DNA from: Candidatus Sulfobium mesophilum
GTDB taxonomy: Bacteria > Nitrospirota > Thermodesulfovibrionia > Thermodesulfovibrionales > UBA6898
Direction: 5' to 3'
Assembly (NCBI GenBank): GCA_900302705.1
Contig: OUUY01000001.1
Coordinates: 1 to 64,000 of the forward strand
DNA: 64,000 nucleotides
Shown: in pieces, positions 12,232 to 39,968 of the stretch
Position numbering within the stretch: the first letter of the stretch is position 1
Layout of the letters: each line of letters opens with the position of its first letter
Made by a program: the position numbers and the translations under genes
The notes under the pieces: generated by a model
What the model saw: only the letters and a program-made list of their open reading frames with translations
What the model was told of the DNA's origin: nothing
Database searches by the model: none

Positions 12232-14043
12232 TTATTTGTACAAGGTTGTCATGGTGGTACCAACATTATTCGCTGCATCATAGGCTTTCGCTACTACGGT
12301 ATGAGCGCCTTGCGAGACCTTCAAGGTGTTCCAGTTGTAAGTCAGGCTCATGCTTCCTGATATCGAACTTTTCAGGGCGCCGTCAATGTAGAGCTCGATC
12401 TTTGCGACGCCAACGTTGTCAGTTGCACTCGCCGTAATTGTCACTTTCTTATCAATGGTTGAACTGGCGGCGGGAGAAACGAACGACACCGTAGGGGGTG
12501 TGGTGTCCGAAGGACTGAGTGAAACGATTGCATTGCTTACAGAGGCCGAGATATGGCTGGACTGACCGACGTTGCCGGCGGCATCGTAAGCATAGGCAAC
12601 TATATCATATGTCCCATTTGAATAGGTGCTCGTATCCCAGGAAAAGCTGTACGGCCCTGTGGTGTCAGTTGCAAAGAGACCCCCATTGATATAAAGTTGT
12701 ACTTTTGTCACTCCTACATTATCACTCGCTGAAACATTGACCGTCGTTGTGCCGCTCACAGTTGCACCTGTGCTGGGGGTCACTATAGAGGCAGTGGGAG
12801 CAGTCGTGTCCACGAGAGGTTGAGCGTCAAACGCGGCGAGCACGCTCTTGTATGCATTGACCCTCCCGTAACCAAAGTACTGGTCAAATCCGGACGTGCC
12901 CAAATCGTCAGCATTTTCCTTGAGAATCTGTTCAACTTGTACGTTGGTCAATGATGGATTTGTGCCTATTACCAAAGCAGCAACAGCTGCAGCGATGGGT
13001 GATGAAAAGGATGTGCCACTCACTGACCCGTAGCTACCTCCATTCGTCGTCGTTAGGATCGAGGCCCCAGGAGCCGAGATGTCCACCCAGCTTCCGTAGC
13101 TGGAAAAGCTGGCGAGGCTGTCTGTCGATGCCGTTGCAGAGACAGCTACCACGTTCTGCCCCGAAGCCGGGAAATTGGGAGTGCTATTTGCAGAGTTGCC
13201 CGCAGCAGCAAAAATCAGGGCTCCCTTATTCCAGGCGTAATTGATCGCGTTCTGAAGAGTGGAAGAGCCGGTCGGGCTACCGAAGCTCATATTCAAGACC
13301 CTCACGCCCCTGTCAGCCGCCCAAGTGGTCGCTGAAGCCAAGGCAGACCATGTTGCATAACCAGTGGAGTCTGCAACCACCAAAGGCATGATGGTACTCT
13401 CCCAGGCAACCCCTGCGACACCGATGCCGTTATTCGCAATTGCAGCGGCAGAACCGGCAACTTTAGTTCCGTGACCGTAAACGTCGTGAGTATCGGTGTT
13501 GTTCGCTCTGAAGTTGTAGCCGCCTACCAGTTTTCCTGCGAGATCTGGATGAGCCGGGTCAACCCCTGAATCCAGGATTGCGATGGTGGCGCCGGCTGAC
13601 CCCCTGCTGACGTCCCATGCTTGCGGAGCAGATATCTTCACTAAATGCCACTCTGATGTGAAACTGGGGTCATTCGGTATCAGCATAGGCTCAATGAAGT
13701 AGTTGTTCTCAACGTAGTTGATGTGCGGATTGTGGGCCAGTGCAACCTTGACCTTTTCCAGGGCATGTGCCGGTACCTTTATTACCTTGACCCTGATCTG
13801 AGGTATCTCATCAAACTCCGTGGCTCCTTGCTCAGATAGTATTTGGGAAGATTTCGCCTCCGAAACCCCCGCCTTGGGCTGTACGAGCAATTCATCTTCG
13901 ACGAACGGGCTATGCCCCATACTAAAAGGCCCTGGAACCGCCAGATTTTCACCCCAGCTCCAGCTTGTCAGAAAAAGACAGAATATCCCTGCCAGGATAG
14001 CGAATGTTCCTGCCCTCACAACATGTTGTCCCTGCTTAAACAT
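12232..14043 (-). CDS. Subtilisin-like (S8) secreted serine protease with two Ig-like domains
   Basis: This 603-residue protein has a signal peptide (about 1-31) and a propeptide domain of the inhibitor type (LLVQPKAGVSEAKSSQILSE, about 52-112). The catalytic domain is about 125-405: Asp in ATIAILDSGVDPAHPDL, His in YGHGTKVAGSAAA, Ser in SGTSFSSPIAAAVAAL, and oxyanion Asn in IFAAAGNSAN. The C-terminal half carries two tandem Ig-like repeats sharing the SATDNVGVAKIELYIDGAL pattern, typical of secreted proteases and polysaccharide-binding proteins. No PEP-CTERM or type 9 signal follows. An AGGAGGTAAAGT ribosome-binding site precedes the ATG. It converges on the PEP-CTERM gene at 11401, and a role in maturing or turning over matrix proteins is possible but not shown. 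Confidence 0.93.
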   Translation of the reverse strand: MFKQGQHVVRAGTFAILAGIFCLFLTSWSWGENLAVPGPFSMGHSPFVEDELLVQPKAGVSEAKSSQILSEQGATEFDEIPQIRVKVIKVPAHALEKVKVALAHNPHINYVENNYFIEPMLIPNDPSFTSEWHLVKISAPQAWDVSRGSAGATIAILDSGVDPAHPDLAGKLVGGYNFRANNTDTHDVYGHGTKVAGSAAAIANNGIGVAGVAWESTIMPLVVADSTGYATWSALASATTWAADRGVRVLNMSFGSPTGSSTLQNAINYAWNKGALIFAAAGNSANSTPNFPASGQNVVAVSATASTDSLASFSSYGSWVDISAPGASILTTTNGGSYGSVSGTSFSSPIAAAVAALVIGTNPSLTNVQVEQILKENADDLGTSGFDQYFGYGRVNAYKSVLAAFDAQPLVDTTAPTASIVTPSTGATVSGTTTVNVSASDNVGVTKVQLYINGGLFATDTTGPYSFSWDTSTYSNGTYDIVAYAYDAAGNVGQSSHISASVSNAIVSLSPSDTTPPTVSFVSPAASSTIDKKVTITASATDNVGVAKIELYIDGALKSSISGSMSLTYNWNTLKVSQGAHTVVAKAYDAANNVGTTMTTLYK

Positions 14044-14718: not shown

Positions 14719-15624
14719 TCACAGTTGCTGTCCGTTGTCCTCAATATTCATTGATTGAGCTTTTTTTAAGATCATCCATTTCTTTAGTTTCTGAAGAGGG
14801 TTTCTGCCCCCCATCAGAATATAGCCCCGTTTAAATTTGCCCCTGAGAAGATCGATCTGAAGATAATGCGGCACAGGGTACACTTTATCTTTACCCGTGA
14901 TGATTTTTACTACTTCCGAAGCAATAAGAGACGCGGCGAGCGTGCAAGCTAGCGAAACAGCAGGTCCTGTCCTTTTAGCCAGGCTCACTTTCGACATATC
15001 CACATAACGGATGTGATAGGGATGAGGAGCAAGGCCGGCAGCAAATGCAGCCATCTTCTCCAAATATGTCATATCATCTGATATATTGAAATAATCATCA
15101 AATGACATACCCGTCGGCGAGAAGACTTCCAGAGTTGCTCCGAACCCAAGAGGAGCTGAAGTAAGTGCAATAATTCCTCTTTCTCTCGAGGCCCTGAATG
15201 CAAGCCTTCGTATGTCTATAGCAAAAAAATCGAGGCCATCGACAAAGATGTCTACCCCATCAAGGAAAGCGGATATATTATCACTATTAATCCCGTCATG
15301 AAACATCCTGACATCGGCATGACAATTTATATCTTTGACCATCTGCCCAAGGACACCAGCCTTATTTTGCCCCATAGTATGAGTATTTGCCCCGAACTGT
15401 CTGCTTATGTTGACGCGTTCGAAAATATCATTGTCCGCTATGTTAAATTTGCCTATGCCAAGACGAGCCAGAGTGAGAATATGAAGGCCGCCTACACCAC
15501 CGGCTCCTGCCACGGCAATTCGTGACTCAAGCATTCTTTTCTGTTCTGACTCGCTCAGAAGCCCAATATTTCTCGAAAATTCCTCCTCGATTAGTTTATC
15601 AATGTCAGTCGACGTGCTTGACAA
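14719..15624 (-). CDS. ThiF/HesA/MoeB-family adenylyltransferase
   Basis: This roughly 301-residue E1-like enzyme has a Rossmann ATP-binding loop AVAGAGGVGGLHILTLARLG (about residues 37-56), the acidic DNDIFERVNISRQFG segment with its conserved Arg, and the DIFVDGLDFFAIDIR region that contacts substrate. The usual paired CxxC zinc motifs of MoeB/ThiF are absent. Family members adenylate a carboxyl group, often the C-terminus of a small protein or peptide, or a carboxylate metabolite. The start is uncertain: a TTG at 15624 lies inside the end of the TolC-SPOR gene (20-bp overlap), implying translational coupling. It is the last gene of a five-gene minus-strand operon with a DevBCA-like exporter, so its product is probably an exported, activated metabolite. 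No ubiquitin-like partner is seen. Confidence 0.85.
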   Translation of the reverse strand: MSSTSTDIDKLIEEEFSRNIGLLSESEQKRMLESRIAVAGAGGVGGLHILTLARLGIGKFNIADNDIFERVNISRQFGANTHTMGQNKAGVLGQMVKDINCHADVRMFHDGINSDNISAFLDGVDIFVDGLDFFAIDIRRLAFRASRERGIIALTSAPLGFGATLEVFSPTGMSFDDYFNISDDMTYLEKMAAFAAGLAPHPYHIRYVDMSKVSLAKRTGPAVSLACTLAASLIASEVVKIITGKDKVYPVPHYLQIDLLRGKFKRGYILMGGRNPLQKLKKWMILKKAQSMNIEDNGQQL

Positions 15625-17347
15625 TGATAGAGTCCTTTATGGAGAATTTGTTGTTGAAGGCCACTGCCTCTTCTCTGCTCGTGAAGCCGATAATTCTAAT
15701 TTTATAGAAATTTTTCACCTTTTGAACCTTTATCTTCCTGGCATCTATTTCTCTACCTAGTTTCCTGCCAAACTCCGTGGCGTTTTGCCTCATCCGGAAA
15801 GAACCCACCTGGATGGCGTATGCGGCGTGAGGAGTGACTTCCGGGGCAACAGTCGGGACAGCATCATTGCTTTTTGTAACTGACTCCGCTTTGGAAACCT
15901 CCTCTGTTTCAATCGGGGCATCTGTTGAAACACCATTCTCAGAGGTTTTCCCATGATTGCCTGCTAAATTCTCTTTTGTTATTTTTGAGAGACCCTCAAA
16001 GTCAGGCTGGTAAAGTTCTTTGGCAGTGAACCATCCATTATTTTGCGTCGAGGTCGCTACTTCAAGGCGCGCCAAAGAAATGTTCAGGTCATTTACTGAG
16101 ATAATGTAATCGTTATATCCTTTGGCAAAATCTGCTTCAGTTTCAAGAAGGTCCGCCAGTTTAATTATTTTTTCAGCATATCTCTCAGTGGCTGTCCTGA
16201 ACCTTGATTCGGAGGTCTTCAGCTTTTTCTCGTGAAATTCTACTTCCTTCTCCTTCTCCTTGACTTCACGCCACGCCTCCTCGGCCTCTAACAAGACTGT
16301 TTTTGTGAGATCTTCGTGCTCATATTGCCGTTTTTGCTTCGCCGCTTCTGCTTTCTTTACGCTTGATTTCGTCTTGCCCCACTCAAAGATAGCCCAGTCA
16401 AGCTGGGCAGTCATCATCCAAACCTCAGGCCTTGTTATAGTGGTCTCTTTCTGCTTCGTTAGGCTGCCCTGAAGAGAAGCCTTCGGATAAAAATCGCTCT
16501 TAGCTATTTCGATATCCTCGCCCGCAGCGCCTATCTGCCTCATGGATATCTTGATCTCTTCCCTTTGGGCAAAGGCAGATTCCTTCACCTCTGGAAGAGA
16601 TACCACGAGAAACCCTCTCACGGGGTTCTCTTTAAGGGAGATCTCACCATCTTCTTTAAGATATATGAGCAGTTTGAGTCTGCTTAGGGCCAGGTCCTCT
16701 GCGTTTTTGACTTTAAATAGTTCCAGTTCAGCGGCGGCCAGGTCTGTCTCCGCAATAAGCACGTCATCTTTCTGGGCGTATCCCTCATTGTGCAATTCCT
16801 GTACTACCCTCAGCCGTTCACGCTTCGACGCGACTATCTTTTCGAGCGTTTTCCTGTAAAGCTGCTCCTTTAAGGCAGCGTAAAATGCCTTTTTCACATT
16901 AAACTCGAGCAATTTTTTCTGCCTTTCAACGCGGTAAATTGCCTCTTCGCCGAGTATCTTTGATTTGCTAAGCGAATGAGTCAGTTGGCCGCCCATAAAA
17001 AGGGGCTGATCAATGATCAGACTTGCACCGTAAAAATTCTGATTTTCGAGAGACTGTTCGACATCGACAGGGGGTATGCCTGGTGCAAAGACATCAGCCC
17101 TGGTAATAAATGCATCAGACTTGTCGCGAAGTGCATAGGCGCCCTTAATCTTCAGCGAAGGCAACAAACTCGCATGAGATATGATAACGTCTTCCGCCGA
17201 CGAAATAAGTTCTGTCTTTGATGCTTTAAGGCCGCTGTTGTTCTCTAACGCCATATCAATACACTTTTGAAGGGCCAGTTCTGACGAATATGCCCCCGAC
17301 GGCGGAAGTATGAAAAAGAGAAGAAGGAGGACGAACAACCTTTTCAT
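15605..17347 (-). CDS. TolC-family outer membrane channel fused to a C-terminal SPOR domain
   Basis: This 580-residue protein has a signal peptide (about 1-21). It has two outer-membrane-efflux repeats (ALQKCIDMALENNSGLKASK at the start, DLALSRLKLLIYL, later VWMMTAQLDWAIFEWGKTKS) with long coiled-coil helices, as in TolC. After residue 440 a low-complexity linker leads to a SPOR domain at the C-terminus (YAIQVGSFRMRQNATEFGRK, then FYKIRIIGFTSREEA). SPOR domains bind denuded peptidoglycan, so the channel may be tethered to the cell wall or septum. The fusion is unusual. The gene overlaps the adaptor gene by 4 bp upstream and the ThiF gene downstream. Confidence 0.88.
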   Translation of the reverse strand: MKRLFVLLLLFFILPPSGAYSSELALQKCIDMALENNSGLKASKTELISSAEDVIISHASLLPSLKIKGAYALRDKSDAFITRADVFAPGIPPVDVEQSLENQNFYGASLIIDQPLFMGGQLTHSLSKSKILGEEAIYRVERQKKLLEFNVKKAFYAALKEQLYRKTLEKIVASKRERLRVVQELHNEGYAQKDDVLIAETDLAAAELELFKVKNAEDLALSRLKLLIYLKEDGEISLKENPVRGFLVVSLPEVKESAFAQREEIKISMRQIGAAGEDIEIAKSDFYPKASLQGSLTKQKETTITRPEVWMMTAQLDWAIFEWGKTKSSVKKAEAAKQKRQYEHEDLTKTVLLEAEEAWREVKEKEKEVEFHEKKLKTSESRFRTATERYAEKIIKLADLLETEADFAKGYNDYIISVNDLNISLARLEVATSTQNNGWFTAKELYQPDFEGLSKITKENLAGNHGKTSENGVSTDAPIETEEVSKAESVTKSNDAVPTVAPEVTPHAAYAIQVGSFRMRQNATEFGRKLGREIDARKIKVQKVKNFYKIRIIGFTSREEAVAFNNKFSIKDSIIVKHVD

Positions 17348-18372
17348 TTAATAAATCTCACGGTTACCGTCATGCCATCTTTTAAGCCTGTGAAATCATC
17401 TAGCCTGATATAAATCCCCTGCGTATTGATGTCAAAAGACGCAGCAGGGTCGAAGGTCCTCTGGGCCTTCCTCCTTACAACAGAAAACACTTTGTAAACT
17501 TTACCGTGAAACACCTTGTCCCTATATGCATCTGCATAGACTTCGACAAACTGGCCGCTGTTGATTTTGCCTACATCCGTTTCTTCGAGTTCCGCCCGTA
17601 TTCTCAGCTTTTCCGGATTAACAAGCTTTAATATGGGAGTTCCGACGTCTACTGTCTCGTTATCGTCTTTGAAGCGCTCCGCAACGAGTCCATCGATAGG
17701 CGAAAGGATTGTGTAATCTTTTAAAAGAGCTTTGTCGTATTGCAATTCGGCACTAGCCTTACCGACCTTCGCCCTCGCCCCTTCTATCTCCTCTGATCTT
17801 GCCCCTTTCTGGAACTTCTGCAAGGCAGCTTTTGATTCGTTTAATCCCTCTGTTGCAACTTTCATCTTTTCCTCTGCCCTGTTCAGTTCAACAACAGTTG
17901 TCGCATTCCTGTCGTATAGTCGCTTTTGCCTTTCGTACTCGTCCTGCGCATTCAGATAGGTCGCCTCAGCGCTGTTGAACCTGCTCTTTGCCATTTCTAT
18001 ATCTTCAGTCCTGTAACCACGCTCCAATTCTTTCAAGTGTGCCTTTGTTTCATTAAGCGCCGCCTCAGATGCATTGATCCTTGCGGTGAGCGCGCTTTTG
18101 TCGAGAGTCACCAGAGGTTCTCCCTTCTTTACCATGTCCCCTTCGTCAGCGTTCATCTTCATTATCTCGCCTTTAACCTGACTGCTTATCTGCACATCTT
18201 CTTCACTTTCAACTATACCCTTAGCAGCCAGGAATGAACCCGTCGTCCGCTCGGGCGTCGGCGACTCTTTAGAGATATTTTGTCTAAAAAGCATTGGACC
18301 CAGGACGGCAAGCCCTATCGCCACAACAATAAGCGCAGTAATCAACAAAATGCCAAAGCGGTTGTTCTTCAT
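17344..18372 (-). CDS. HlyD/DevB-type periplasmic adaptor protein
   Basis: This 342-residue membrane-fusion protein has an N-terminal anchor (about 8-30) and a lipoyl half-motif KGEIMKMNADEGDMVKKGEP. It then has a long alpha-hairpin of alternating Lys/Glu/Ala helices, the second lipoyl half YTILSPIDGLVAERFKDDNE, and a beta-barrel domain (VEVYADAYRDKVFHGKVYKV). It bridges the inner-membrane ABC exporter and the outer-membrane channel encoded on either side. It overlaps both neighbours by 4 bp (18369-18372 and 17344-17347), so the complex is translationally coupled. The resemblance is to DevB of heterocyst glycolipid exporters and to MacA-like adaptors. Confidence 0.9.
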   Translation of the reverse strand: MKNNRFGILLITALIVVAIGLAVLGPMLFRQNISKESPTPERTTGSFLAAKGIVESEEDVQISSQVKGEIMKMNADEGDMVKKGEPLVTLDKSALTARINASEAALNETKAHLKELERGYRTEDIEMAKSRFNSAEATYLNAQDEYERQKRLYDRNATTVVELNRAEEKMKVATEGLNESKAALQKFQKGARSEEIEGARAKVGKASAELQYDKALLKDYTILSPIDGLVAERFKDDNETVDVGTPILKLVNPEKLRIRAELEETDVGKINSGQFVEVYADAYRDKVFHGKVYKVFSVVRRKAQRTFDPAASFDINTQGIYIRLDDFTGLKDGMTVTVRFIK

Positions 18373-19058
18373 TGCATCCCTCTTTTCATCCCAACAATTC
18401 TACCATCTTCCATTTCAATTGAAACATCAAAAAAATCCTGGATTCTCGTATCGTGTGTTGCCACTACGACACACTTATTTTGTTCCACCGCAAGCTTTCT
18501 GAGAATTTCCATGACTTTTCTGCCGTTTGTGTGATCAAGGTTTCCTGTTGGTTCATCAGCAAGTATGACAGGCGCATCGGTGGCAAGCGATCTCGCAATG
18601 GCAACCCTCTGCTTTTGTCCACCACTTAAATCTCTGGGCAGAAAATTCATCCTGTCTGAGAGTCCAACCATCGTGAGCATATCCCGCGCACGCTGATCAG
18701 CCGATTCGCCCGCCCCTTTCAATTTCAGGATGATCATGACATTTTCAAAGGCGGTAAGTGCCGGGAAAAGATTGAACCCCTGAAAGACGAAGCTTATATA
18801 TTTTCTTCTTATTTCAGGCAATTCGTTTTCGTCCATGGCTGTTGTTTCAACACCGAACATCTTGATTGAGCCGCTGGTGGGGCGAAGTATACAGCCTATC
18901 ATCGAAAGAAGAGTTGTCTTGCCGCTGCCTGAAGGACCAAAGAGGCCCACTATTTCGCCTTCCTTTAGCTCCAGGTTAATGGACGACACCGCATTTACCT
19001 GAAACCGGCCTTCGGTATATATTTTTGTCAAATCCTGTGCTACCACTGCAGTCTCCAT
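18369..19058 (-). CDS. ABC exporter ATPase, DevA/MacB/LolD type
   Basis: This 229-residue ATPase has Walker A GPSGSGKTT (about 41-49), the Q-loop FVFQGFNLFPALTAFEN, the signature LSGGQKQRVAIA, Walker B VILADEPTGNLD and the H-loop VVVATHD. The length and the SGxTxAFEN style are typical of the lipoprotein/macrolide/lipid exporter subfamily that works with FtsX-fold permeases. It lies 4 bp after the permease gene and overlaps the adaptor gene by 4 bp. Confidence 0.93.
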   Translation of the reverse strand: METAVVAQDLTKIYTEGRFQVNAVSSINLELKEGEIVGLFGPSGSGKTTLLSMIGCILRPTSGSIKMFGVETTAMDENELPEIRRKYISFVFQGFNLFPALTAFENVMIILKLKGAGESADQRARDMLTMVGLSDRMNFLPRDLSGGQKQRVAIARSLATDAPVILADEPTGNLDHTNGRKVMEILRKLAVEQNKCVVVATHDTRIQDFFDVSIEMEDGRIVGMKRGMQ

Positions 19059-19062
19059 GTCG

Positions 19063-20190
19063 TCAGCCCCTAAAAAGTATTGCCGGATCGATTCGTTTTA
19101 TCTTTCTTATGGAAACAAAGGCAGAGGAGAGACACATGACCAGCGCAAGTCCCAGAACAATCAAATTTGTCCACCATCTCACTACCATCACCAAATCGGT
19201 TGCCTCATATATCGGGACCGAAATCAACGTGATTACTAGACTTATGAGATAACCAAAGAGCGCATTAATGAGGGCCTGTGAGAATATGATCCGATAGATG
19301 TCTGTGTTGTTTGCACCCATGGCCTTGAGAGTGCCGAATTCTTTTATATGCTCCACAGTGGAGTTATAAATGGTCTGTCCTATTATAAGCATACCGATGA
19401 GAAAGCTTATGAGTATGGTTAGGAGGAATGCAAACCCGACGCCTGTCTCGATAGTCCAGTAGAGGCGGGTCTTTCGGCTGAAGTCATCTCTTGAATAGAC
19501 ATCGACTCCCTTCAGTCTTTGCTTTAACTTCTGGACAATGCTGTTCACAGAATTGCCGGGAGAAACCTTGGCGATCACAAAGACAGTGTTATCTGGACCT
19601 ATCCACCCAAGAAGACCCTGTACAAGCTTGTAAGATGTAAATATTATGGGGGCGGTGGTGAATGATCTGATGCCTTCTGAGATTCCCACAATCTGAAGCC
19701 TTCTAAAAAAGACTTCTCTGTAATCGCCGACTTTTATATTGCCGAGTCTTCTCATGGCAGATTCATCAACAATGGCGAAGTTGCCGTTCTTTACATCTCT
19801 GCTATCTCCGACTTTCATCTTCCAGGGGCCGCCAACACCTGTGTCAGGATCGTAACCTACCATCTCAATCTGTTCCATCCCCCCCTCTTTCTGTTTAATC
19901 ATGCTCCATGCTATAATCAATTTCTCGGCCCGCTGGACGCCTTCTACGGAGAGCACCTGCTGATAGATATATTCCGGAAAGGGCTGGGAAAAGTCGAAAT
20001 TTTTGCTATTCTTCGATGTAACCCATATGTCACCAGGTGTATTATCTATTATCACAGAGGACATTTCCATGAGACCAAGGTATATCCCCATCTGCGCAAA
20101 AATGAGGCTCACCGCAAAAACGACGCCGAGGAGTGTAATGAAGGATCTGACTTTGTCATAGAGGAGGATTCTCAAGGCCACGTAAAACAT
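19063..20190 (-). CDS. FtsX-fold ABC permease, DevC-like
   Basis: This 375-residue permease has the MacB/FtsX architecture: one N-terminal membrane helix (SFITLLGVVFAVSLIFAQMG), a periplasmic domain of about 210 residues (TPGDIWVTSKNSKNFDF and so on), and three C-terminal helices (FAFLLTILISFLIGMLIIGQ, LINALFGYLISLVITLISV, LIVLGLALVMCLSSAFVS). The motif FGTLKAMGANNTDIYRIIF is the cytoplasmic coupling segment of FtsX permeases. The N-terminal region resembles DevC, which exports glycolipids with DevA, DevB and a TolC homologue; that resemblance is from memory, not computed. It is the first gene of the operon, starting 94 bp from the divergent acyltransferase gene. Confidence 0.9.
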   Translation of the reverse strand: MFYVALRILLYDKVRSFITLLGVVFAVSLIFAQMGIYLGLMEMSSVIIDNTPGDIWVTSKNSKNFDFSQPFPEYIYQQVLSVEGVQRAEKLIIAWSMIKQKEGGMEQIEMVGYDPDTGVGGPWKMKVGDSRDVKNGNFAIVDESAMRRLGNIKVGDYREVFFRRLQIVGISEGIRSFTTAPIIFTSYKLVQGLLGWIGPDNTVFVIAKVSPGNSVNSIVQKLKQRLKGVDVYSRDDFSRKTRLYWTIETGVGFAFLLTILISFLIGMLIIGQTIYNSTVEHIKEFGTLKAMGANNTDIYRIIFSQALINALFGYLISLVITLISVPIYEATDLVMVVRWWTNLIVLGLALVMCLSSAFVSIRKIKRIDPAILFRG

Positions 20191-20284
20191 TGATAAATAA
20201 TACCATGAAGGGTTGGAATATACAAAAAAGAAAATTAAAAAAACTTAATTTGTAATTTGGGTGTGAATCCACTTATTATTAGGC

Positions 20285-20977
20285 ATGCGTGTGAAGAAAG
20301 CGACCTCTTATGACGAGTTGCTTGATGTTTATAGGTTAAGATACAAAGTTTATTGTCTCGAGAGAGGGTATGAACGGCCGGAAGACTACCCTGCCGGGCT
20401 CGAGACAGATATCTATGATCCTTACTCGCTTCATTTCGTTGCATATGTCAAGTCGGTACCCGTTGGAACAGTGAGATTAATCCTGCAAAACCCTCATGGC
20501 TTTCCCGTGGAAAGACATTGCAATGTCGATACAAGGTCCATCTGTCAGCATGGAGAAAAGGTCGCAGAGATTTCACGACTTGCGGTGAGTTCTGAAGCGA
20601 CGAAGGATATCTGCATCGAGAGGGGAAAAATTACGCTCGGCCTGATCAGGGAACTTTATTCTGCATCAAGGGAACTTGGAATCGGATGTCTTGTCTCAGC
20701 AATGAGTTTACCCCTTGAGAGGTTGCTTAAGAGATGCGGGCTGAAATTTCTGAAAGCGGGCCCTGCGGTAGATTATCATGGGTTAAGAACTCCCTACTTT
20801 GCAGCATGTGAAGATCTTGAGAGGGAACTTTTTAACAGGAGAAAAGATCTACTCGCTTTCTTCTTGCCGGAATCTGCGGATTTAGCAGTTCATGCCGCCT
20901 CGACGAATCTCTTTGGCGGGAGGCGCACCGAAGTCGGAGTGGGAGGATGGCTGATCTCTCCGCTTCTGCAGGAATGA
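20285..20977 (+). CDS. PEP-CTERM/exosortase system-associated acyltransferase (LuxI/FeeM-like fold)
   Basis: This 230-residue enzyme is related to acyl-homoserine-lactone synthases and N-acyl amino acid synthases. The N-terminus YDELLDVYRLRYKVYCLERG matches the R-x-x-V/Y-Y signature, followed by ERPEDYPAGLETDIYDPYSL. The middle has VGTVRLILQNPHGFPVE and EISRLAVS, the acyl-carrier-binding core, and the end has AGPAVDYHGLRTPYFA. The family is restricted to exosortase-bearing genomes. The expected chemistry is N-acylation of an amino-containing small molecule from acyl-ACP. It is divergent from the DevBCA/TolC/ThiF operon with a 94-bp spacer. It pairs with a second paralogue at 29777. No strong ribosome-binding site is visible before the ATG. 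Confidence 0.85.
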   Translation: MRVKKATSYDELLDVYRLRYKVYCLERGYERPEDYPAGLETDIYDPYSLHFVAYVKSVPVGTVRLILQNPHGFPVERHCNVDTRSICQHGEKVAEISRLAVSSEATKDICIERGKITLGLIRELYSASRELGIGCLVSAMSLPLERLLKRCGLKFLKAGPAVDYHGLRTPYFAACEDLERELFNRRKDLLAFFLPESADLAVHAASTNLFGGRRTEVGVGGWLISPLLQE

Positions 20978-24770: not shown

Positions 24771-25634
24771 TTAAGCTTTGCGGCGGAATCTCAGAACACC
24801 AAGTCCTGCTAAGCCTGCTCCAAGAAGAACAAAAGTCGCTGGTTCGGGAACTGCTGAAAAACTAGAGGAGCCGTCATACTTGAGAGGGATTCCGGTTGAT
24901 GTGTTCGTTCCATCCCACATTACTGCCGGCGTAAAGAAAGGCGGCAGATTGAGAGTTCCGGTTCCTTCGATATCGAAGATGTGCTGGGTTGTTGCGTCGA
25001 TGTAAAGAGGGTCCCAGGAGTCAATGATATACCGAATATCGAACGACCCCGTTCCTAATTGACCTGGGACCGGCGAATCAAAACTTGCGGTTGCACTAGC
25101 CAGATGAGCGGTCAAGATAAGGGTACCGTCATCATACCCAGACACCGTCCCAGCTCCGTTTCCCGGCACCGCAGTTACCGCGTTGTTAAAATAGACTTGA
25201 AGCAAAGCGGTTGGATCAGCGCCACTGCTAAAGCTTGCAGTCTGATGCGTGCCGTCAAATGCCGTTTCAGTAATAACCGTCTCGGTCAGCTTTGTTTCAA
25301 ACGTCACCTGCTGCGTAACATTATTAAAGACTGATACCAGTAATTTGGTGCCGTTTGCAGACATTGCATCTACGCGTCCCTGCAAGATAAACGTGGTATC
25401 GTAAGGCGCGTCGGGCGTGGGAACTACCGCGGTAGGATCAAAGCCGACGGAAAGCCCTGTGTCAGTAAGGGAGGTCCAGAGGTCAGCGTAGGATGAAGTA
25501 TTGGTGTTGGTCAGAGTGAACGTGCCTGTACCGGTTGGATCGAACCCAATCATTGGCAGTGCAAATGCTGTCCCGTAAATGACAAACATCGAAATAATCA
25601 TTACTGACAGCAAAAAGAATCTTGTCTTTTTCAT
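24771..25634 (-). CDS. PEP-CTERM protein, possibly flocculation-protein (PepA)-like
   Basis: From the ATG at 25634 the protein has 287 residues: a signal peptide (MKKTRFFLLSVMIISMFVIY, cleaved near AFA-LP), a Thr/Gly-rich beta body (FDPTGTGTFTLTNTNTSSYA, VSVFNNVTQQVTFETKL), and the sorting signal VPEPATFVLLGAGLAGLGVL with tail RFRRKA. The arrangement (GTGTFT near the start, FTLTN repeats, DGTLILTA) reminds me of the flocculation-associated PepA family, but this is not tested. A second in-frame ATG at 25688 with an identical ribosome-binding site would add 18 residues. A consensus sigma-54 promoter lies about 50 bp upstream of it and a strong terminator follows, so the gene is monocistronic. 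Confidence 0.88.
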   Translation of the reverse strand: MKKTRFFLLSVMIISMFVIYGTAFALPMIGFDPTGTGTFTLTNTNTSSYADLWTSLTDTGLSVGFDPTAVVPTPDAPYDTTFILQGRVDAMSANGTKLLVSVFNNVTQQVTFETKLTETVITETAFDGTHQTASFSSGADPTALLQVYFNNAVTAVPGNGAGTVSGYDDGTLILTAHLASATASFDSPVPGQLGTGSFDIRYIIDSWDPLYIDATTQHIFDIEGTGTLNLPPFFTPAVMWDGTNTSTGIPLKYDGSSSFSAVPEPATFVLLGAGLAGLGVLRFRRKA

Positions 25635-25703
25635 TTGTTTCACCTCCTTTGTTTTTGGATTTAATCTGTTCATTAAATTCTTGCTCATTTGTTTCACCTC
25701 CTT
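25632..25703 (-). repeat. Duplicated ribosome-binding site plus start codon
   Basis: The 18-mer AAGGAGGTGAAACAAATG occurs twice on the minus strand, at 25703-25686 and at 25649-25632, exactly 54 bp apart and therefore in frame. Either ATG could initiate the PEP-CTERM protein. The downstream copy gives the conventional signal peptide. Confidence 0.85.
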
Positions 25704-25882: not shown

Positions 25883-26590
25883 TTACAGTACCCTATTAAC
25901 GAAACTCTGCAGGCGGCCTGCTGGGATGGGGCCGCCATGAGATGTGAAGATGGTCGCTGTCAAAAGTTTCGCTACTACCTGAACGCTCTGCTTCCATTTC
26001 TCCTTATCTGCCACAAAGAGGGGACCTCTCGGCAGCTTGCGAAAGAGGAAGCCTCCCATGAGCAGGTCACCTACAATCGCTTCACCCCCCGGCAGAATCA
26101 CGGAAATTGAACCTTCTGTATGCCCCGGCGTAGTGATCACCCTTCCTTCGACACCGAATGCCGAAAGATCCATCTCCCCTTCAATAATAATGTCGGGAGT
26201 AAGCGCCCTTGTGCGAACCTCACTCCGCCGGGCAAACAGAGATTTTATAACCCAGCCGGCAAAGCCGGTAGGGTTTCCGAGGTGATCTATCCCCTTCTCA
26301 AGGTAACCGGCATCTTCTTTGTGGATGGCGATAGGGGCGCCTGTAGCCGACCGTAGTTCCGCAGCACTTCCGTGGTGGTCGATATGACCGTGGGTAAGGA
26401 TTATCAGTGATAAGTCCTTGGAGTCAATAGAGTTTTTCCCAAGATGGCCGAGTATTTTATCCGCATTGCCTGGATAGCCCGTATCGACTAGCACGGCCCT
26501 CTTGCCCCTTATGAGGAAAGAATTGACAATACCGAGTCTTAGCGGAATAACGGATGGAAGACCTATTCTTTCTACAGAGTTCCCTTTCAC
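25883..26590 (-). CDS. Metallo-beta-lactamase-fold hydrolase
   Basis: This 235-residue protein has the zinc-binding motif THGHIDHHG (HxHxDH) near residues 65-73. A downstream His is in TTPGHTEGSISVIL, an Asp in GEAIVGDLLMGG, and the last His in TIFTSHGGPI. The N-terminus (FLIRGKRAVLVDTGYPGNAD) is the classic opening of glyoxalase II-like and lactonase-like enzymes. It could hydrolyse thioesters, lactones or phosphodiesters. A quorum-lactonase role is tempting given the LuxI-like acyltransferases but has no direct support. It starts at a GTG and appears to be a single gene on the minus strand. Confidence 0.88.
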   Translation of the reverse strand: MKGNSVERIGLPSVIPLRLGIVNSFLIRGKRAVLVDTGYPGNADKILGHLGKNSIDSKDLSLIILTHGHIDHHGSAAELRSATGAPIAIHKEDAGYLEKGIDHLGNPTGFAGWVIKSLFARRSEVRTRALTPDIIIEGEMDLSAFGVEGRVITTPGHTEGSISVILPGGEAIVGDLLMGGFLFRKLPRGPLFVADKEKWKQSVQVVAKLLTATIFTSHGGPIPAGRLQSFVNRVL

Positions 26591-26959: not shown

Positions 26960-27598
26960 TTATCTCTTGATACCCTTCCTCACAAGCCCGACGCCCAGAA
27001 GTCCTGCACCGAGGAGAAGAAATGAGGAAGGCTCAGGTACCTGAGTATTATTTTGAGAACCGGGATCCGGGTCCGAATAATGACCGGCTAAGGTGGAATA
27101 ATCAATCTGGAGTTTGTCATTCCCGTTGGTTGTTTCGTTGAGCTTAACATTAAGGCTCCATGGGGTGGTGCTTTGCATCTCGTTTAAGACAGCATTGCTG
27201 ATTGTCCATGTATCGGGAACCCAATCATTAACGCTGCTACTTAATTGACCGATTAGGATATTTCCATTACTGTCAGCAAACCATAGCTCATAGGGTTCAA
27301 CGGTATGCGTGTTGCTATTACCTTTATGTCTTAACGTCAAGGTAGCACTATCAAGAACAAAGCCGGAAGTGTTCAATCCGGTCAGCGCGTGAGTGTATGT
27401 GTAATAGTCACTGATCTGATAATAAGTGTAACTATGACTGCCTTCCGTGGAAGAGAAATCGAGTGTATCAGTAAAAGTAGGATAAGTATTACTGAAAGTA
27501 TCAGTAATACTAGGAGTAGAAGCAGCGAATAACGCCTGCGCTGCCGATGATAATAAAATGACAAAAACAATGGCCGAGTATTTCAGTATCTTAAACAT
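26960..27598 (-). CDS. PEP-CTERM surface protein
   Basis: The ATG at 27598 follows GGAGGAAATACA and gives a 212-residue protein. It has a signal peptide (MFKILKYSAIVFVILLSSAA, cleaved near LFAA) and a beta-rich body with many Ser, Thr and Tyr (SHSYTYYQISDYYTYTHALT, LDSATLTLRHKGNSNTHTVE). The sorting signal is VPEPSSFLLLGAGLLGVGLV with tail RKGIKR. The body resembles small choice-of-anchor or lectin-like domains, but I cannot name a family. It is monocistronic with a sigma-54 promoter 50 bp upstream and a GC-rich terminator. It is probably an EPS-matrix or surface component. Confidence 0.9.
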   Translation of the reverse strand: MFKILKYSAIVFVILLSSAAQALFAASTPSITDTFSNTYPTFTDTLDFSSTEGSHSYTYYQISDYYTYTHALTGLNTSGFVLDSATLTLRHKGNSNTHTVEPYELWFADSNGNILIGQLSSSVNDWVPDTWTISNAVLNEMQSTTPWSLNVKLNETTNGNDKLQIDYSTLAGHYSDPDPGSQNNTQVPEPSSFLLLGAGLLGVGLVRKGIKR

Positions 27599-27646
27599 TG
27601 TATTTCCTCCGTGATCCAGTAAAATTGTGCGCTTGATCACAAGCGA

Positions 27647-29776: not shown

Positions 29777-30511
29777 ATGCCTGCTTATGATTTTGCATTG
29801 AAATATATCTTCTTTTGGGCTAACATGCTTCTTATGACGGGGGAGCTGGGAATTAGCGCAAGGAGGGTTTGCGGGGCTGATGAACTCCGCAGGGTTTATG
29901 CACTGCGATATCAGGTCTACTGTAATGAATGGGGTTTCGAGAGACCGGAGGATCATCCCGGAGGCATCGAGACGGATCAGTTCGATCCTCACTCCATGCA
30001 CTTTATAGAGACCTTTGCCGACGACAGGCTCATCGGCACCGTTCGCATTATTCTCGATTCTCCGGCAGGATTTCCGATCGAGAGTCACTGCAAACTGGAT
30101 ATAGACCTGAAAAATTTTGACAGGAGGCGAATGGGGGAGATATCGAGGCTGGCGATCAGCAAGGAAGTTAGGAGAAGGTCCGAAGACAGCATCATCTATG
30201 AGTCCGTACCGGGAAGTATGACCCTGGAGCAGACTGCCGGTGACAGGAGGAGGCGTCAGCTTTTTATAATGAATTTATACAAGTGTATTTATGCGGAGAG
30301 TAAGAGGCTGGGGATCACCCACTGGCTTGCGGTTATGGCAAAAGGCCTTCACCTTATTCTCAAAAGGGCAGGGATCGTGTTCTGTCCGATTGGAGCTGAG
30401 GTCTACTATCACGGGCAGAGGACTCCCTATATCGGTGTAATTAGCGAGATGGAGGAACAGGTGGCAAAGACGAATCCTGAGTTTCTCCGGGAGCTCAGTG
30501 AGGGACTCTGA
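29777..30511 (+). CDS. Second exosortase-associated acyltransferase (LuxI/FeeM-like fold)
   Basis: This 244-residue paralogue of the protein at 20285 has the same landmarks: DELRRVYALRYQVYCNEWGF, ERPEDHPGGIETDQFDPHSM, IGTVRIILDSPAGFPIE, GEISRLAIS and GAEVYYHGQRTPYIG. It carries an insertion of about 25 residues after the SRLAIS motif (RRSEDSIIYESVPGSM...). The ATG at 29834 (MTGELG) is an alternative start that removes an odd hydrophobic N-terminus. It is divergent from glmS. As with its paralogue, the expected activity is transfer of an acyl chain from acyl-ACP to an amine substrate. Two differing copies suggest two products or acceptors. Confidence 0.83.
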   Translation: MPAYDFALKYIFFWANMLLMTGELGISARRVCGADELRRVYALRYQVYCNEWGFERPEDHPGGIETDQFDPHSMHFIETFADDRLIGTVRIILDSPAGFPIESHCKLDIDLKNFDRRRMGEISRLAISKEVRRRSEDSIIYESVPGSMTLEQTAGDRRRRQLFIMNLYKCIYAESKRLGITHWLAVMAKGLHLILKRAGIVFCPIGAEVYYHGQRTPYIGVISEMEEQVAKTNPEFLRELSEGL

Positions 30512-30881: not shown

Positions 30882-31253
30882 ATGAAAGATATACTGATAA
30901 TTGCCGAGGATGGGTTTTCGCGCGTCTGTCAGGCGCTTCTCGAATGCGAAGGATACCATCCAAAGAGTGTATCCGACGCTCAAGCCCTATGCCCGGAATG
31001 GCATAGCAAAAAGGTCGGGCTGATCATAGCCAACTATCCATTCAAGGAGTCCTTTGTAGATGAACTGAAAAGAAAAAATGCTTTTGTCCTTATCCTTACG
31101 GACCATATCAGCGGGGACCTCATAGAGACACTCGAAATACTCCCTAATTCTTTTTGTATGGTGAAACCCCTTGATTACCAGAAATTCAAAGGGGTCGTAA
31201 GAGAGGCTATGGAGGGGAACTTCAGTGATCGAGGAGGATATTGCATTGTTTAA
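30882..31253 (+). CDS. Receiver-like regulatory protein lacking the phosphoacceptor Asp
   Basis: From the ATG at 30882 the protein has 123 residues and starts MKDILIIAEDGFSRVCQALL, like a CheY-type receiver. The fold continues with the strand KVGLIIANYPFK, where the usual phosphorylated Asp is replaced, then FVLILTDH and the conserved Lys in FCMVKPLDYQKFKGVV. The upstream in-frame extension to 30819 contains the sigma-54 promoter and cannot be translated from it; ATG 30867 would leave almost no leader. It is the first gene of the EPS operon and overlaps prsT by 8 bp. A pseudo-receiver is expected to work by protein contact or ligand binding. I cannot say whether it controls transcription or the synthesis machinery. 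Confidence 0.7.
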   Translation: MKDILIIAEDGFSRVCQALLECEGYHPKSVSDAQALCPEWHSKKVGLIIANYPFKESFVDELKRKNAFVLILTDHISGDLIETLEILPNSFCMVKPLDYQKFKGVVREAMEGNFSDRGGYCIV

Positions 31254-34005
31254 GAGGTTGTCATTACTTTTCAGCATTGTTTTTCTTTTTGTAGGATGCG
31301 GCAATCAAACTAAAGACGGGCTGTTTGCAGAGGGGCGGAAACTACTCGATGAGGGCAAACCCATGCGTTCCATCGTGTATTTTAAAAATGCCCTGGAAAA
31401 GGATCAAAACTTTACGGATGCACGTTTTTATCTCGGGAAGGCCTACCGCAGCGCCGGAAAGTATGAACAGGCGGAGAAGGAATTTCTGAAGGTATTGAAA
31501 CAGGAGCCTTCAAAGAAAGAGACCCATTTAGAACTTGCCAGGGTCTATCTCAAGACAGGAAAGTCTGATGATGCACTCCGCGAGGGTAAGATCAGCCTTG
31601 AGTCAAACCCATCAGATGCCGATATACTAGCACTCTTAGGACAAGTTTTCCTCCAGAAGAATGATGCCAAGGAAGCTGAGGAATACCTCCAGAAGGCCTT
31701 GTCGATTAAGAGTGATTTGGCAGCTGCGAAGCTGACCCTTGCCGCTGTTTATCTCCAAAAAGGGGACCAGCAGGGCGCAAAATCACAGATTGAGCAGGTC
31801 ATCGCGCGGGATAACAAGAATACCCAAGCCTATTATATGCGCGCGGAGATCGAGAAAAAGGCAGGAGATAGTAATGCAGCAATCGCCTCCTATGCAAAAA
31901 TAGCTGAGATCGACCCATCAGATGCGAACGCTTCCTTTATGGTCGGCATGATGCACTTGGAGAAGGGTGACCTGAAAAAAGCTCGTGCGGTAGCTGAAGA
32001 CCTTAAGAAGAAGTTCCCCAAATTTTCGGATAGTGAAAGGCTCTTGGGGTTTATCGCATATCAGGAGAAAAAGTTCGATGACGCCATAACGTCTTTCCAG
32101 ACAGCGCTGAAAACAGGGGAGAATCCGGTCATATATTACTATCTGGGGTTGAGCTATTACAACAAAAGGCAGGTGGAACAGGCGCTTAGTCAATTCCAAC
32201 GAGCCCTTAATCTTTATCCGTCATTTATTCAGGCACGGCTTATGACGTCAGTAATTTTCCTTACTAAAAAGAGGGCGGACGATGCCCTTCGTGAAGCCCA
32301 GAAGGTTCTGGAAGCAGATGAGAAGAACGCCCTGGCACACAATATAGCAGGCAGCGCTTACATGGCAAAAGGAATGTACGAAGAGGCGATGGTTGAGATG
32401 AACAAGGCGACGGAGAGCGACCCTAATTATGTAAATGCATACCTGAAAAAGGGATTGTTCGAAATCAGCAGGGGCAAAGTGAGGGAAGCCGAGACCGAGT
32501 TGAAGGCGGCTGTGCAGATAGCGCCGAATGCGTTGAACACGCGGTTTCTTCTCTATTCGTATTATGTGAAAATGAAAGACTATGAAAAGGCTGTCAAGAC
32601 CCTCAAGGAAGGTCTCGACGGCACCAAGAAAGACGCCCCACTGTACAACAACATCGCTGTGACGCTACTCGCGAAAAACAGGTCAGGGGATGCGGAGGCC
32701 ATCGGGTATTTGAAAAAAGCGAAAGAGACAGATCCTGATTATTTGCCGTCATACTTCAGTGCTGCCACCTACTATGCGGGAAAGAGCCAGTATGACAAGG
32801 TGCTGAGCGAGTATGAGGCTGTTTTGAAGAAGGACCCGAAGAACCTCAAAGCGCTCCTCAGCATGGCCTCAACCTTTGAAGTTACCGGGAAGAATGAGCA
32901 GGCTTTTAGCTATTATGTGAAGGCGAAAGAGACCGGAAAGCCGGAGGGATTCGTGGCGCTTAGTGGTTTCTATTTCAGGAAGAAAGATCACGAAAAGGCC
33001 GTGAGCGTTTTGGATGAGGCGCTGAAAACCGACCCCAAAAATATTAGCGCAATGGAGCTGAAGGGGAAGATATATCTGGCTGACAAGAGATATAAAGATG
33101 CGCTGAGGACTTTTGAAAACGTCGAACGTACCAATCTTGAGAGGGGGACGAATCTCATTGTTTTGACCTACCTCGCCGCTCGTGACTATGACAATGCGAT
33201 AAGGAAACTCCAGGAGAGAACAAAAACGGCTCCCCAAAGGCTTGACCTGATGAACGAGACCGCGAGGATATACTGTCTGAAAGGTGATACGAACAAAGCG
33301 TTTGATATCGCTAATACGATCATAAAACAGAAGCCTGATTCTGCCTACGGATATACTGTGCTTGCCTATGTCTATGAACAGCAGCGGGAACTCGATAAGG
33401 CGATTGGCGCTCTCAAGAAGGGTCTGCAGGTGCAGGGAGATAACCCTCAGATAAGTTTGAAAATCGCTGAGCTCCACACGCGGAAGAAGGAGTTTGGTCT
33501 TTCGCTTAAAGATTATGAAGACATCCTGAAAAAACAGCAGGGTTACGTTCCGGCTCTTTTTGGCAGGGCGACCACCCTGGAGCTTATGGGAAAGAAAAAG
33601 GAGGCTATAAAGGGTTACAGTGACGTGCTTGAGAGATCTGAGAACCATGTGCTGGCCCTGAATAATCTAGCATTTCTGTATGCAGATGGTAACGGAAACA
33701 AAGCAGAGGCACTCAAGTTAGCAAACAAGGCTTTCGGACTCGCACCGAATGATGGAAGTGTAATCGATACCTTGGGATATGCGCTCCTCGTGAACGGTAA
33801 AATAAACGAGGCAACAAAGGCTCTTGAGAAGGCGATTACGCTTCTGCCGGACAACCCTTCCGTACGCTACCACCTTGCGCTTGCTTACAGACAGGCTGGT
33901 AAAAAAGATAAGGCAAAGGAACAGGTTGTCGCTGCTCTCGCGAAGAGTGATTTCTCAGAATCAGCTCAGGCAAAAAAGCTTCTTCAGGAGATCAACGGCA
34001 AATGA
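31246..34005 (+). CDS. prsT: TPR-repeat lipoprotein PrsT of the PEP-CTERM/EPS system
   Basis: The TTG at 31246, 9 bp after GAGGAGG, gives about 919 residues that open with a lipoprotein signal (MFKRLSLLFSIVFLFVGCG, lipobox FVGC). A GTG at 31225 is an alternative start with less support. More than twenty tetratricopeptide repeats fill the rest, for example DARFYLGKAYRSAGKYEQAE, EAEEYLQKALSIKSDLAAAK and NPSVRYHLALAYRQAGKKDK. The length and lipobox match PrsT, the long TPR lipoprotein of exosortase-linked EPS loci, thought to scaffold polysaccharide or protein secretion. It overlaps the sugar transferase gene by 4 bp. Confidence 0.9.
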   Translation: MFKRLSLLFSIVFLFVGCGNQTKDGLFAEGRKLLDEGKPMRSIVYFKNALEKDQNFTDARFYLGKAYRSAGKYEQAEKEFLKVLKQEPSKKETHLELARVYLKTGKSDDALREGKISLESNPSDADILALLGQVFLQKNDAKEAEEYLQKALSIKSDLAAAKLTLAAVYLQKGDQQGAKSQIEQVIARDNKNTQAYYMRAEIEKKAGDSNAAIASYAKIAEIDPSDANASFMVGMMHLEKGDLKKARAVAEDLKKKFPKFSDSERLLGFIAYQEKKFDDAITSFQTALKTGENPVIYYYLGLSYYNKRQVEQALSQFQRALNLYPSFIQARLMTSVIFLTKKRADDALREAQKVLEADEKNALAHNIAGSAYMAKGMYEEAMVEMNKATESDPNYVNAYLKKGLFEISRGKVREAETELKAAVQIAPNALNTRFLLYSYYVKMKDYEKAVKTLKEGLDGTKKDAPLYNNIAVTLLAKNRSGDAEAIGYLKKAKETDPDYLPSYFSAATYYAGKSQYDKVLSEYEAVLKKDPKNLKALLSMASTFEVTGKNEQAFSYYVKAKETGKPEGFVALSGFYFRKKDHEKAVSVLDEALKTDPKNISAMELKGKIYLADKRYKDALRTFENVERTNLERGTNLIVLTYLAARDYDNAIRKLQERTKTAPQRLDLMNETARIYCLKGDTNKAFDIANTIIKQKPDSAYGYTVLAYVYEQQRELDKAIGALKKGLQVQGDNPQISLKIAELHTRKKEFGLSLKDYEDILKKQQGYVPALFGRATTLELMGKKKEAIKGYSDVLERSENHVLALNNLAFLYADGNGNKAEALKLANKAFGLAPNDGSVIDTLGYALLVNGKINEATKALEKAITLLPDNPSVRYHLALAYRQAGKKDKAKEQVVAALAKSDFSESAQAKKLLQEINGK

Positions 34006-35384
34006 GCGTCATCTCCCGAAATCCCTCGGCGATTGCGAGCGGAATCCTCCTGACAGGTGATGGAGTTCTGGGCCTTGTTGCATTTTACATCAGTTTGTGT
34101 CTGAGATTCGGCGGTCTCTCCGAGGGCCAGGCTAAATACGAGCACCTGGGCTTCACGGTCGTTGTCTTCGTGATTACTCTTCTTTTTTGTTCTTTTTTCG
34201 TGGAACTCTACACGCAGGACAGAAATTTGAGCAATAAAGAAACGTTAGTGAGAACAGTGGCCTCATCATGTCTTGCTTTTGTTATTCTTTCCACTTTTTT
34301 TTATGTGTTTCCTTCTATTAAAATGTGGCGAGGCATGCTCGCATATTGCCTGGTCTCTTTTAGTGCCTTGCAATTTATCTGGCACCTTTTCTTCGGGCTT
34401 TTCCCAAGGCTTCCGGCGTTTGCGAAAGGAGTATTGATCTTTGGTGCAGGCGCGAGCGCTGAAAAATTGGGTGAACTTGTTCTCTCAACAAATCATAGCC
34501 ACATTCTCAGGGGATATGTTACCTGCGACACTGAGACATGCGTGGTTCCGGCGGCGTACATCCCTGAAGGGGGAAGCCTCTTGGAAACCGCCCGCAAAGA
34601 ACGCGCCCAGAAGATTGTCATTTCTCTCACGGAACGAAGGGGTAATCTCCCTCTGAAGGATGTACTGGACTGCAAGCTCAGCGGCATCGACGTTCTTGAC
34701 GCGCCTTCGTTTTATGAGCAGATGACGGGAAAACTCCTCATCGAGGAGATGAAACCAAGTTCTCTTATCTTCTCGGACGGCTTTAAGATAACCTCTTTCA
34801 AGATGCTATCCAAACGCGCCATCGATCTGGCCCTGGCTCTGGTCGGCTCTGTCGTGATTCTGCCATTCCTGCCTATTCTTGCCCTCCTTGTCAAGGCAGA
34901 CTCTCCGGGTCCCGTCTTATTCAGACAGACTCGGGTGGGTAAGGGGGAGAAGGATTTTGTGCTCTACAAGTTCAGGACTATGCGTGACGACGCTGAAAAA
35001 GGGACAGGCGCTGTCTGGGCTGAGAAGGAAGACTGCAGGATTACGCGCGTAGGCAAGTTCCTCAGGAAATCGAGACTCGACGAGGTGCCCCAGATCTATA
35101 ATGTACTCAAGGGGGATATGAGCTTTATCGGTCCGAGGCCGGAGAGGCCCGAATTTGTTGAGCAGTTAAAGAAGATTATCCCGTATTATTCAGAGAGGCA
35201 TTTTGTAAAGCCAGGCATCACAGGATGGGCGCAGATAAAGTACCCTTACGGTGCGTCGACGGAGGATGCCGTTGAGAAACTGAGATACGATCTTTACTAC
35301 ATAAAACATCTTTCCCTCTTCCTCGATTTCCTGATTGTGCTTGAAACAGTCAAAGTCGTTCTCTTTGGAAGGGGCAGCAGGTAG
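34002..35384 (+). CDS. Polyprenyl-phosphate sugar transferase, exosortase-EPS (EpsB) type
   Basis: This 460-residue initiating glycosyltransferase has four to five N-terminal membrane helices (GLVAFYISLCLRFGG, FTVVVFVITLLFCSFFVELY, AFVILSTFFYVFPSIK). A cytoplasmic Rossmann-like domain follows (VLIFGAGASAEKLGELV), and then the bacterial sugar transferase domain from about residue 265. This has KRAIDLALALVGSVVILPFL, the SPGPVLFRQTRVG motif, the YKFRTMRDDAE segment, LDEVPQIYNVLKGDMSFIGP and ITGWAQI. It transfers a sugar-1-phosphate from UDP-sugar to undecaprenyl phosphate, the first step of repeat-unit assembly. The start codon overlaps the prsT stop (ATGA). Confidence 0.93.
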   Translation: MSVISRNPSAIASGILLTGDGVLGLVAFYISLCLRFGGLSEGQAKYEHLGFTVVVFVITLLFCSFFVELYTQDRNLSNKETLVRTVASSCLAFVILSTFFYVFPSIKMWRGMLAYCLVSFSALQFIWHLFFGLFPRLPAFAKGVLIFGAGASAEKLGELVLSTNHSHILRGYVTCDTETCVVPAAYIPEGGSLLETARKERAQKIVISLTERRGNLPLKDVLDCKLSGIDVLDAPSFYEQMTGKLLIEEMKPSSLIFSDGFKITSFKMLSKRAIDLALALVGSVVILPFLPILALLVKADSPGPVLFRQTRVGKGEKDFVLYKFRTMRDDAEKGTGAVWAEKEDCRITRVGKFLRKSRLDEVPQIYNVLKGDMSFIGPRPERPEFVEQLKKIIPYYSERHFVKPGITGWAQIKYPYGASTEDAVEKLRYDLYYIKHLSLFLDFLIVLETVKVVLFGRGSR

Positions 35385-35392
35385 GAGGCTTT

Positions 35393-36268: not shown

Positions 36269-36287
36269 ATAGGGAAGGAGTCTCACA

Positions 36288-37871: not shown

Positions 37872-37886
37872 GGAGGAACCCAAGAG

Positions 37887-39963: not shown

Positions 39964-39968
39964 GAGAT

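Follow-up and report, generated by a model that had tools for sequence, protein, structure and literature searches.

A candidate oxazolone-type pathway with its own exporter beside the XrtA/PEP-CTERM locus of Candidatus Sulfobium mesophilum

The DNA analysed here, referred to as the window, covers the opening 64 kb of contig C88 (106,945 bases; OUUY01000001.1) from the 2.77-Mb, 84% complete draft genome of Candidatus Sulfobium mesophilum. At positions 14719-20977, an exosortase-associated N-acyl amino acid synthase (NAS) gene diverges from a five-gene operon for a permease, an ATPase, a periplasmic adaptor, an outer-membrane channel and a ThiF-fold enzyme. Together with a nitroreductase (NTR) encoded farther along the same contig, these genes probably (about 0.65) specify a three-enzyme pathway of the oxazolone type with an exporter of its own, next to an XrtA/PEP-CTERM/exopolysaccharide (EPS) locus. 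The case is built on gene order, co-location, family membership, intact ATP-site residues in the ThiF protein, co-inheritance of ThiF and NTR, and a natural fusion of the three enzymes, all of them properties of the sequence.

A first-pass annotation of this DNA had proposed a joint role for the six genes in the synthesis, activation or modification, and export of an acylated small molecule. Domain searches place the genes at the coordinates it gave, with all named domains above the Pfam cut-off, and its outline of synthesis, activation and export is the best reading; the role that it suggested for the product, as a lipid signal or anchor for the PEP-CTERM/EPS surface, is speculative. Its six-gene set was incomplete, as it overlooked a second, more orthologous NAS gene (NAS 2, 29777-30511, + strand) and the candidate desaturase, an FDO-type nitroreductase encoded beyond the window, near C88:84767-85819. 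This genome has all three enzyme types of the oxazolone pathway, NAS, putative ThiF cyclase and FDO-type nitroreductase.

Gene order and spread of the exporter operon

The five genes lie on the - strand. A MacB/DevC-like FtsX-fold permease (19063-20190; FtsX, MacB_PCD) is followed, after a 4-bp gap, by a DevA/LolD-like ABC ATPase (18369-19058; ABC_tran 120.2 bits), which overlaps by 4 bp with a HlyD/DevB-like periplasmic adaptor (17344-18372; HlyD_D23, HlyD_3). The adaptor gene in turn overlaps by 4 bp with that of a TolC-family outer-membrane channel carrying a C-terminal SPOR domain (15605-17347; OEP 163.6 bits, SPOR 37.6 bits), and the latter by 20 bp with the gene for a putative ThiF-fold adenylyltransferase/cyclase of 301 aa with a TTG start (14719-15624; Pfam ThiF 143.7 bits). 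Gene positions leave a divergent intergenic region of 94 bp (20191-20284, no strand) between the operon and the acyltransferase gene, NAS 1 (20285-20977, + strand; FeeM 60.5 bits), and a divergent NAS/permease arrangement is found in L119 too.

The collinear order FtsX-ATPase-adaptor-TolC-ThiF is found in the window and at L020, L021, L022, L023 and L024. Three of these loci (L020, L021, L024) belong to Nitrospirota bins, as do the order-mates of the window genome among named records, which are Nitrospirota metagenome bins; L022 is labelled Melainabacteria and L023 Deltaproteobacteria, bin labels that may be wrong. The window permease falls in a dedicated nine-member clade in which ThiF lies beside TolC in six members, and the five-gene order including ThiF is kept in 6/6 members with uncut contigs. 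Because this order recurs in five other genomes, the grouping is not accidental; NAS genes also neighbour the operon in sister loci, and the earlier view that the genes belong together is therefore upheld.

Two details of that annotation fared less well. It had suggested a check for co-occurrence of ThiF, TolC-SPOR and the acyltransferase, and co-location is seen for ThiF, TolC and NAS. The SPOR domain itself (15623-15829, - strand; residues 507-575; Pfam SPOR) is an optional extension, present on two of six operon TolCs (window and L024) and absent in L020, L010/L021, L022 and L023, which rules out TolC-SPOR as a hallmark of the system. Additionally, the exporter had been assigned to DevBCA. 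All three components fall below the curated cut-offs, the adaptor for DevB (TIGR02971, 73.7 vs 129 bits), the ATPase for DevA (TIGR02982, 226 vs 295.8 bits) and the permease for DevC (TIGR01185, 126.9 vs 290.35 bits), and the exporter can therefore be called DevBCA-like at most.

ThiF of this family is also found with other exporters. In a sister ThiF clade (L025, L026, L030), the place upstream of ThiF is taken by another set, ATPase-FtsX-LolA-like-DUF1302; this LolCDE-like exporter, with a LolA-like protein and a DUF1302 outer-membrane protein, is tied to the same enzymes at L025:3507-7892 and also in L026, L030, L056, L093 and L094. Two exporter forms thus occupy the same operon place, one DevBCA-like with TolC and one LolCDE-like with LolA and DUF1302. 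Similarly, a Bdellovibrio plasmid has the order LolA-like-ATPase-FtsX-unknown-ThiF, and in betaproteobacteria (L052, L062, L073, L075, L076, L098) NAS-FtsX-FtsX is divergent from ThiF-NTR. In a Planctomycetales bin (L045:5728-11938), a DevBCA-like permease, ATPase and adaptor are followed in a row by NTR, ThiF and a UbiE-type methyltransferase, an arrangement that resembles a stieleriacine cluster with an exporter of its own. Overall, FtsX genes are enriched about 15-fold around PRK08223 ThiF, with 47 in 1.33 Mb vs 3.1 expected from their density in 27 of the ThiF-bearing genomes. This linkage of exporter and ThiF suggests that the exporter carries the product of NAS, ThiF and NTR.

Partnership and family membership of the three enzymes

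Neighbourhoods were counted at 80 named loci with this ThiF family, within the available flank, which is limited by many short contigs. An NTR was found at 59 of these loci, NAS at 53, both at 42 and an exporter part (FtsX or LolA) at 36, and 14 ThiF-NTR fusions were seen. Additionally, ThiF was found in eight of 396 genomes of the phylum and a FeeM-family NAS in 101/396; all eight ThiF bearers are among the latter, which would occur by chance with a probability of ~1.4e-5 (a hand calculation, uncorrected for kinship).

The strongest single piece of evidence for the partnership comes from Nitratidesulfovibrio vulgaris DP4, an anaerobe. Its megaplasmid encodes a 989-aa protein (WP_011787321.1; L143:11080-14049), annotated solely as a ThiF family adenylyltransferase, in which FeeM (43-198), ThiF (316-565) and nitroreductase (from 609) form a single chain; the family PRK14852 has this same layout. 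The existence of such a fusion shows that the three enzymes act together. The gene lies inside an XrtA/PEP-CTERM locus, and an FtsX permease, ATPase and adaptor are encoded ~8 kb downstream, the permease being 39% identical to that of the window.

In the window genome, the NTR is encoded on the same contig as ThiF at a distance of ~69 kb, where it adjoins a PEP-CTERM-type response regulator and a histidine kinase; in L020, L021 and L024 NAS, ThiF and NTR are clustered. Against the Rv1355c (TrzS) model the window genome's NTR reaches 217 bits, and against PRK14851 214 bits. ThiF and NTR have matching histories: the NTR clusters with the NTRs of L020-L024 (bootstrap/SH-aLRT 99/96) and the window ThiF with the ThiF proteins of L020-L024 (100/100), and both clades share one sister group (L025, L026, L030, L035). 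The ThiF and NTR distance matrices are correlated (Mantel r 0.71, reached by 0/2000 permutations), a value to which host-genome kinship contributes and from which it was not removed. At the level of sequence, therefore, the window ThiF and NTR are co-inherited.

The window ThiF belongs to NCBIfam PRK08223, with 390.6 bits over residues 12-293 (cut-off 266), and scores 330 bits to the ThiF part of PRK14851 (ThiF-nitroreductase) and 267 bits to PRK14852. In an alignment of 46 sequences its ATP-site residues are kept, namely the glycine-rich loop G40-G46, D66, N72, R75, Q76, K88, D129 and nearly D132. Its AlphaFold2 model (pLDDT, the per-residue confidence score, 94) matches the PDB structures of AclA (the best fold match), ThiF, PaaA, MccB and MoeB. 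Among solved families, profile comparison puts TcdA first (E 7e-26); this tRNA threonylcarbamoyladenosine dehydratase activates an N-substituted amino acid and closes it into a ring. The protein is below the equivalog cut-offs of both TcdA (ct6A dehydratase; 51.1 vs 304 bits) and adenyl_thiF (76.3 vs 275.25 bits), and having just two cysteines, C101 and C227, it lacks a Cys4 zinc site. Profile, predicted fold and cysteines accord better with an enzyme that activates and cyclises small-molecule carboxylates than with one that activates a sulphur carrier. A sulphur-carrier or ubiquitin-like activating enzyme was ruled out by the cut-offs, the missing Cys4 site and the NAS and NTR partners.

Both window NAS proteins pass the exosort_acyl cut-off of TIGR03694 (111.95), NAS 1 with 151.9 bits and NAS 2 with 183.9 bits, and are 37% identical to each other. 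The AlphaFold2 model of NAS 1 is most similar to FeeM (2g0b), and the LuxI/FeeM-type residues R19, D42, D45, R64, E95 and S97 are conserved. NAS 1 is nearest, at 44% identity and with weak tree support, to a NAS encoded divergently from this exporter in G299, where two NAS genes are so placed. NAS 2 groups in the tree with the NAS of L020, L021, L024 and L035 and is 47% identical to that of L010, beside a sister operon; NAS 1 as direct orthologue of the sister operons' NAS was ruled out, NAS 2 being closer. NAS 1 and NAS 2 may make different lipids. A long-chain fatty-acid CoA ligase family lies near the module in 14 loci (L020:14361-15863 and 13 others) and is a possible acyl supplier for NAS.

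NAS 2 sits just ahead of prsT (31225), a gene of the XrtA/PEP-CTERM EPS cluster at 31225-41767, which comprises PrsT, a chain-length determinant, a TIGR03016 outer-membrane protein, an XrtA-associated ATPase and an UpxY-type antiterminator. Two PEP-CTERM proteins (24771-25697 and 26960-27640, - strand) flank a metallo-beta-lactamase-fold protein (25883-26590, - strand). Directly after the ThiF gene is a subtilase (S8) with Big_7 repeats (12232-14043, - strand), and in another genome a subtilase 58% identical to it adjoins the permease of the same exporter (L120:1829-3583).

Proposed pathway and competing explanations

The enzyme chemistry is of a known kind. Acyl-CoA and Tyr or Trp are converted into acyl-oxazolones by TyzA/TyzC/TyzB and TrzA/TrzS in three reactions: N-acylation, ring closure by ThiF at the expense of ATP, and O2-dependent desaturation by a nitroreductase-fold flavin oxidase (PMC10404671, PMC12856293). 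NAS, ThiF and nitroreductase likewise occur in producers of stieleriacines, kyonggic acids and thalassotalic acids (PMC12479983). The first-pass annotation had listed the whole as a candidate undescribed system; since this enzyme set has already been published, the word undescribed holds at most for the exporter.

By analogy, NAS 1 and/or NAS 2 would N-acylate an amino acid (aromatic in characterised relatives) with a fatty acyl chain. ThiF would then adenylate the free carboxylate and close the N-acyl amino acid into a 5-oxazolone (azlactone), a cyclase role that we infer from the characterised relatives TyzB and TrzS (PMC10404671, PMC12856293), and the flavin enzyme encoded beyond the window would desaturate the alpha-beta bond. 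Finally, permease, ATPase, adaptor and TolC would form a MacAB/DevBCA-like tripartite pump across both membranes, whose cargo would be either the intact oxazolone or its hydrolysis product, an N-acyl (dehydro)amino acid. The amino acid, the acyl chain, the survival of the ring and the pathway product as cargo are all inferred points of this scheme.

Several observations weigh against a pathway with a dedicated exporter. The window genome's own NTR lies outside the exporter operon, and ThiF is absent from the other searched genomes of the window's family, this genome being the sole bearer. Among the 80 ThiF loci, many of them on short contigs, 21 have no visible NTR and 44 no exporter part. Three genomes (G299, G033 and G110) have close relatives of the exporter (74-78%) and no ThiF of the PRK08223 family genome-wide; as none of the three contigs reaches the place where ThiF would lie, loss of ThiF and an assembly gap are indistinguishable there. 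Additionally, some bearers of these genes, such as N. vulgaris, are anaerobes. The published desaturases depend on O2 (PMC10404671, PMC12856293).

The alternative that survives best, unlikely as we consider it, is that the pathway ends, like that of the stieleriacines, in a linear N-acyl (dehydro)amino acid, exported as a surfactant or signal, with ThiF adenylation and the ring a transient device that acidifies the alpha carbon ahead of desaturation. From producers with this enzyme set linear N-acyl dehydrotyrosines were obtained, with no oxazolone observed (PMC12479983), so that the end product may be linear here as well; in TrzS, cyclisation has to come before desaturation (PMC12856293), and the stieleriacine-like set of L045 joins a DevBCA-like exporter to NTR, ThiF and a methyltransferase. 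In contrast, the products isolated from the TyzABC and TrzAS enzymes are acyl-oxazolones (PMC10404671, PMC12856293).

It is improbable that the exporter carries another cargo, such as an EPS-linked glycolipid, or serves general efflux, with ThiF a mere operon neighbour. DevBCA does export glycolipids (PMC6161253), the exporter clade extends to the three genomes in which PRK08223 ThiF was not found, and more distant FtsX relatives are mostly without an adjoining NAS or ThiF. However, a chance neighbour is hard to reconcile with an order that keeps ThiF in every uncut clade member, with a second, different exporter upstream of ThiF in the sister clade, with the FtsX enrichment around ThiF or, in G299, with the pair of NAS genes that diverges from the exporter. 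Activation of a peptide or protein C-terminus by ThiF, in a ubiquitin-like pathway or one for ribosomally synthesised and post-translationally modified peptides (RiPPs), with a peptide as the exported cargo, is very unlikely: AclA, the best fold match, is a ThiF-type enzyme whose structure with bound substrate has been solved and ThiF-like enzymes are known in RiPP pathways (PMC12250964), yet the checked genes near the operon include no recognised beta-grasp or precursor-peptide family, the Cys4 zinc site is missing, and the partners naturally fused with ThiF are NAS and NTR.

Relation to known systems and significance

An oxazolone-type pathway in the window genome would share a NAS-type acyltransferase, a ThiF cyclase and a nitroreductase-fold flavin oxidase with OxzAB (Pseudoalteromonas rubra), TyzACB and TrzAS (Mycobacterium). 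Unlike in those pathways, the window ThiF stands alone as the last gene of an exporter operon, remote from its NTR. The N-acyl dehydrotyrosine clusters (PMC12479983) have the same three enzymes, and their Massilia and Pirellulaceae members fall in the same ThiF family (L095, L096, L036). The exporter shares a separate ATPase, a MacB/DevC-type permease, a HlyD-type adaptor and TolC with MacAB-TolC and with the heterocyst glycolipid exporter DevBCA-HgdD (TolC); unlike in the latter, its components miss the Dev cut-offs and TolC is encoded inside the operon. No exporter was found in the searched passages of the Tyz and Trz papers (PMC10404671, PMC12856293), and the terms transporter, export, ABC and TolC have 0 occurrences in the N-acyl dehydrotyrosine paper (PMC12479983).

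More widely, in the open literature searched, which covered neither Craig et al. 2011 nor the first OxzAB paper, no exporter for oxazolones or N-acyl tyrosines and no exit route of oxazolone products from the cell was found. What appears to be new is therefore the exporter partnership, the two alternative exporters in one operon position and the tie to XrtA loci, the single-chain fusion among them.

The reason for N-acyl amino acid synthases in exosortase bacteria is a standing question, and Craig et al. 2011, going by its title, reportedly linked the two. Both window NAS belong to the exosortase-associated acyltransferases of TIGR03694, here tied to ThiF, NTR and a dedicated exporter. If the reading of an oxazolone-type pathway with its own exporter is true, many exosortase-associated acyltransferases belong to such a pathway, and the product should therefore be sought at the cell surface. 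As a long shot, the exported azlactone might be a reactive acyl donor that acylates amines of the PEP-CTERM/EPS matrix (aminosugars, freshly exposed protein ends), a non-enzymatic surface lipidation that, if true, would account for the placing of NAS genes beside exosortases. Nitratidesulfovibrio vulgaris, a culturable sulphate reducer that bears the single-chain version, offers a simple test system.

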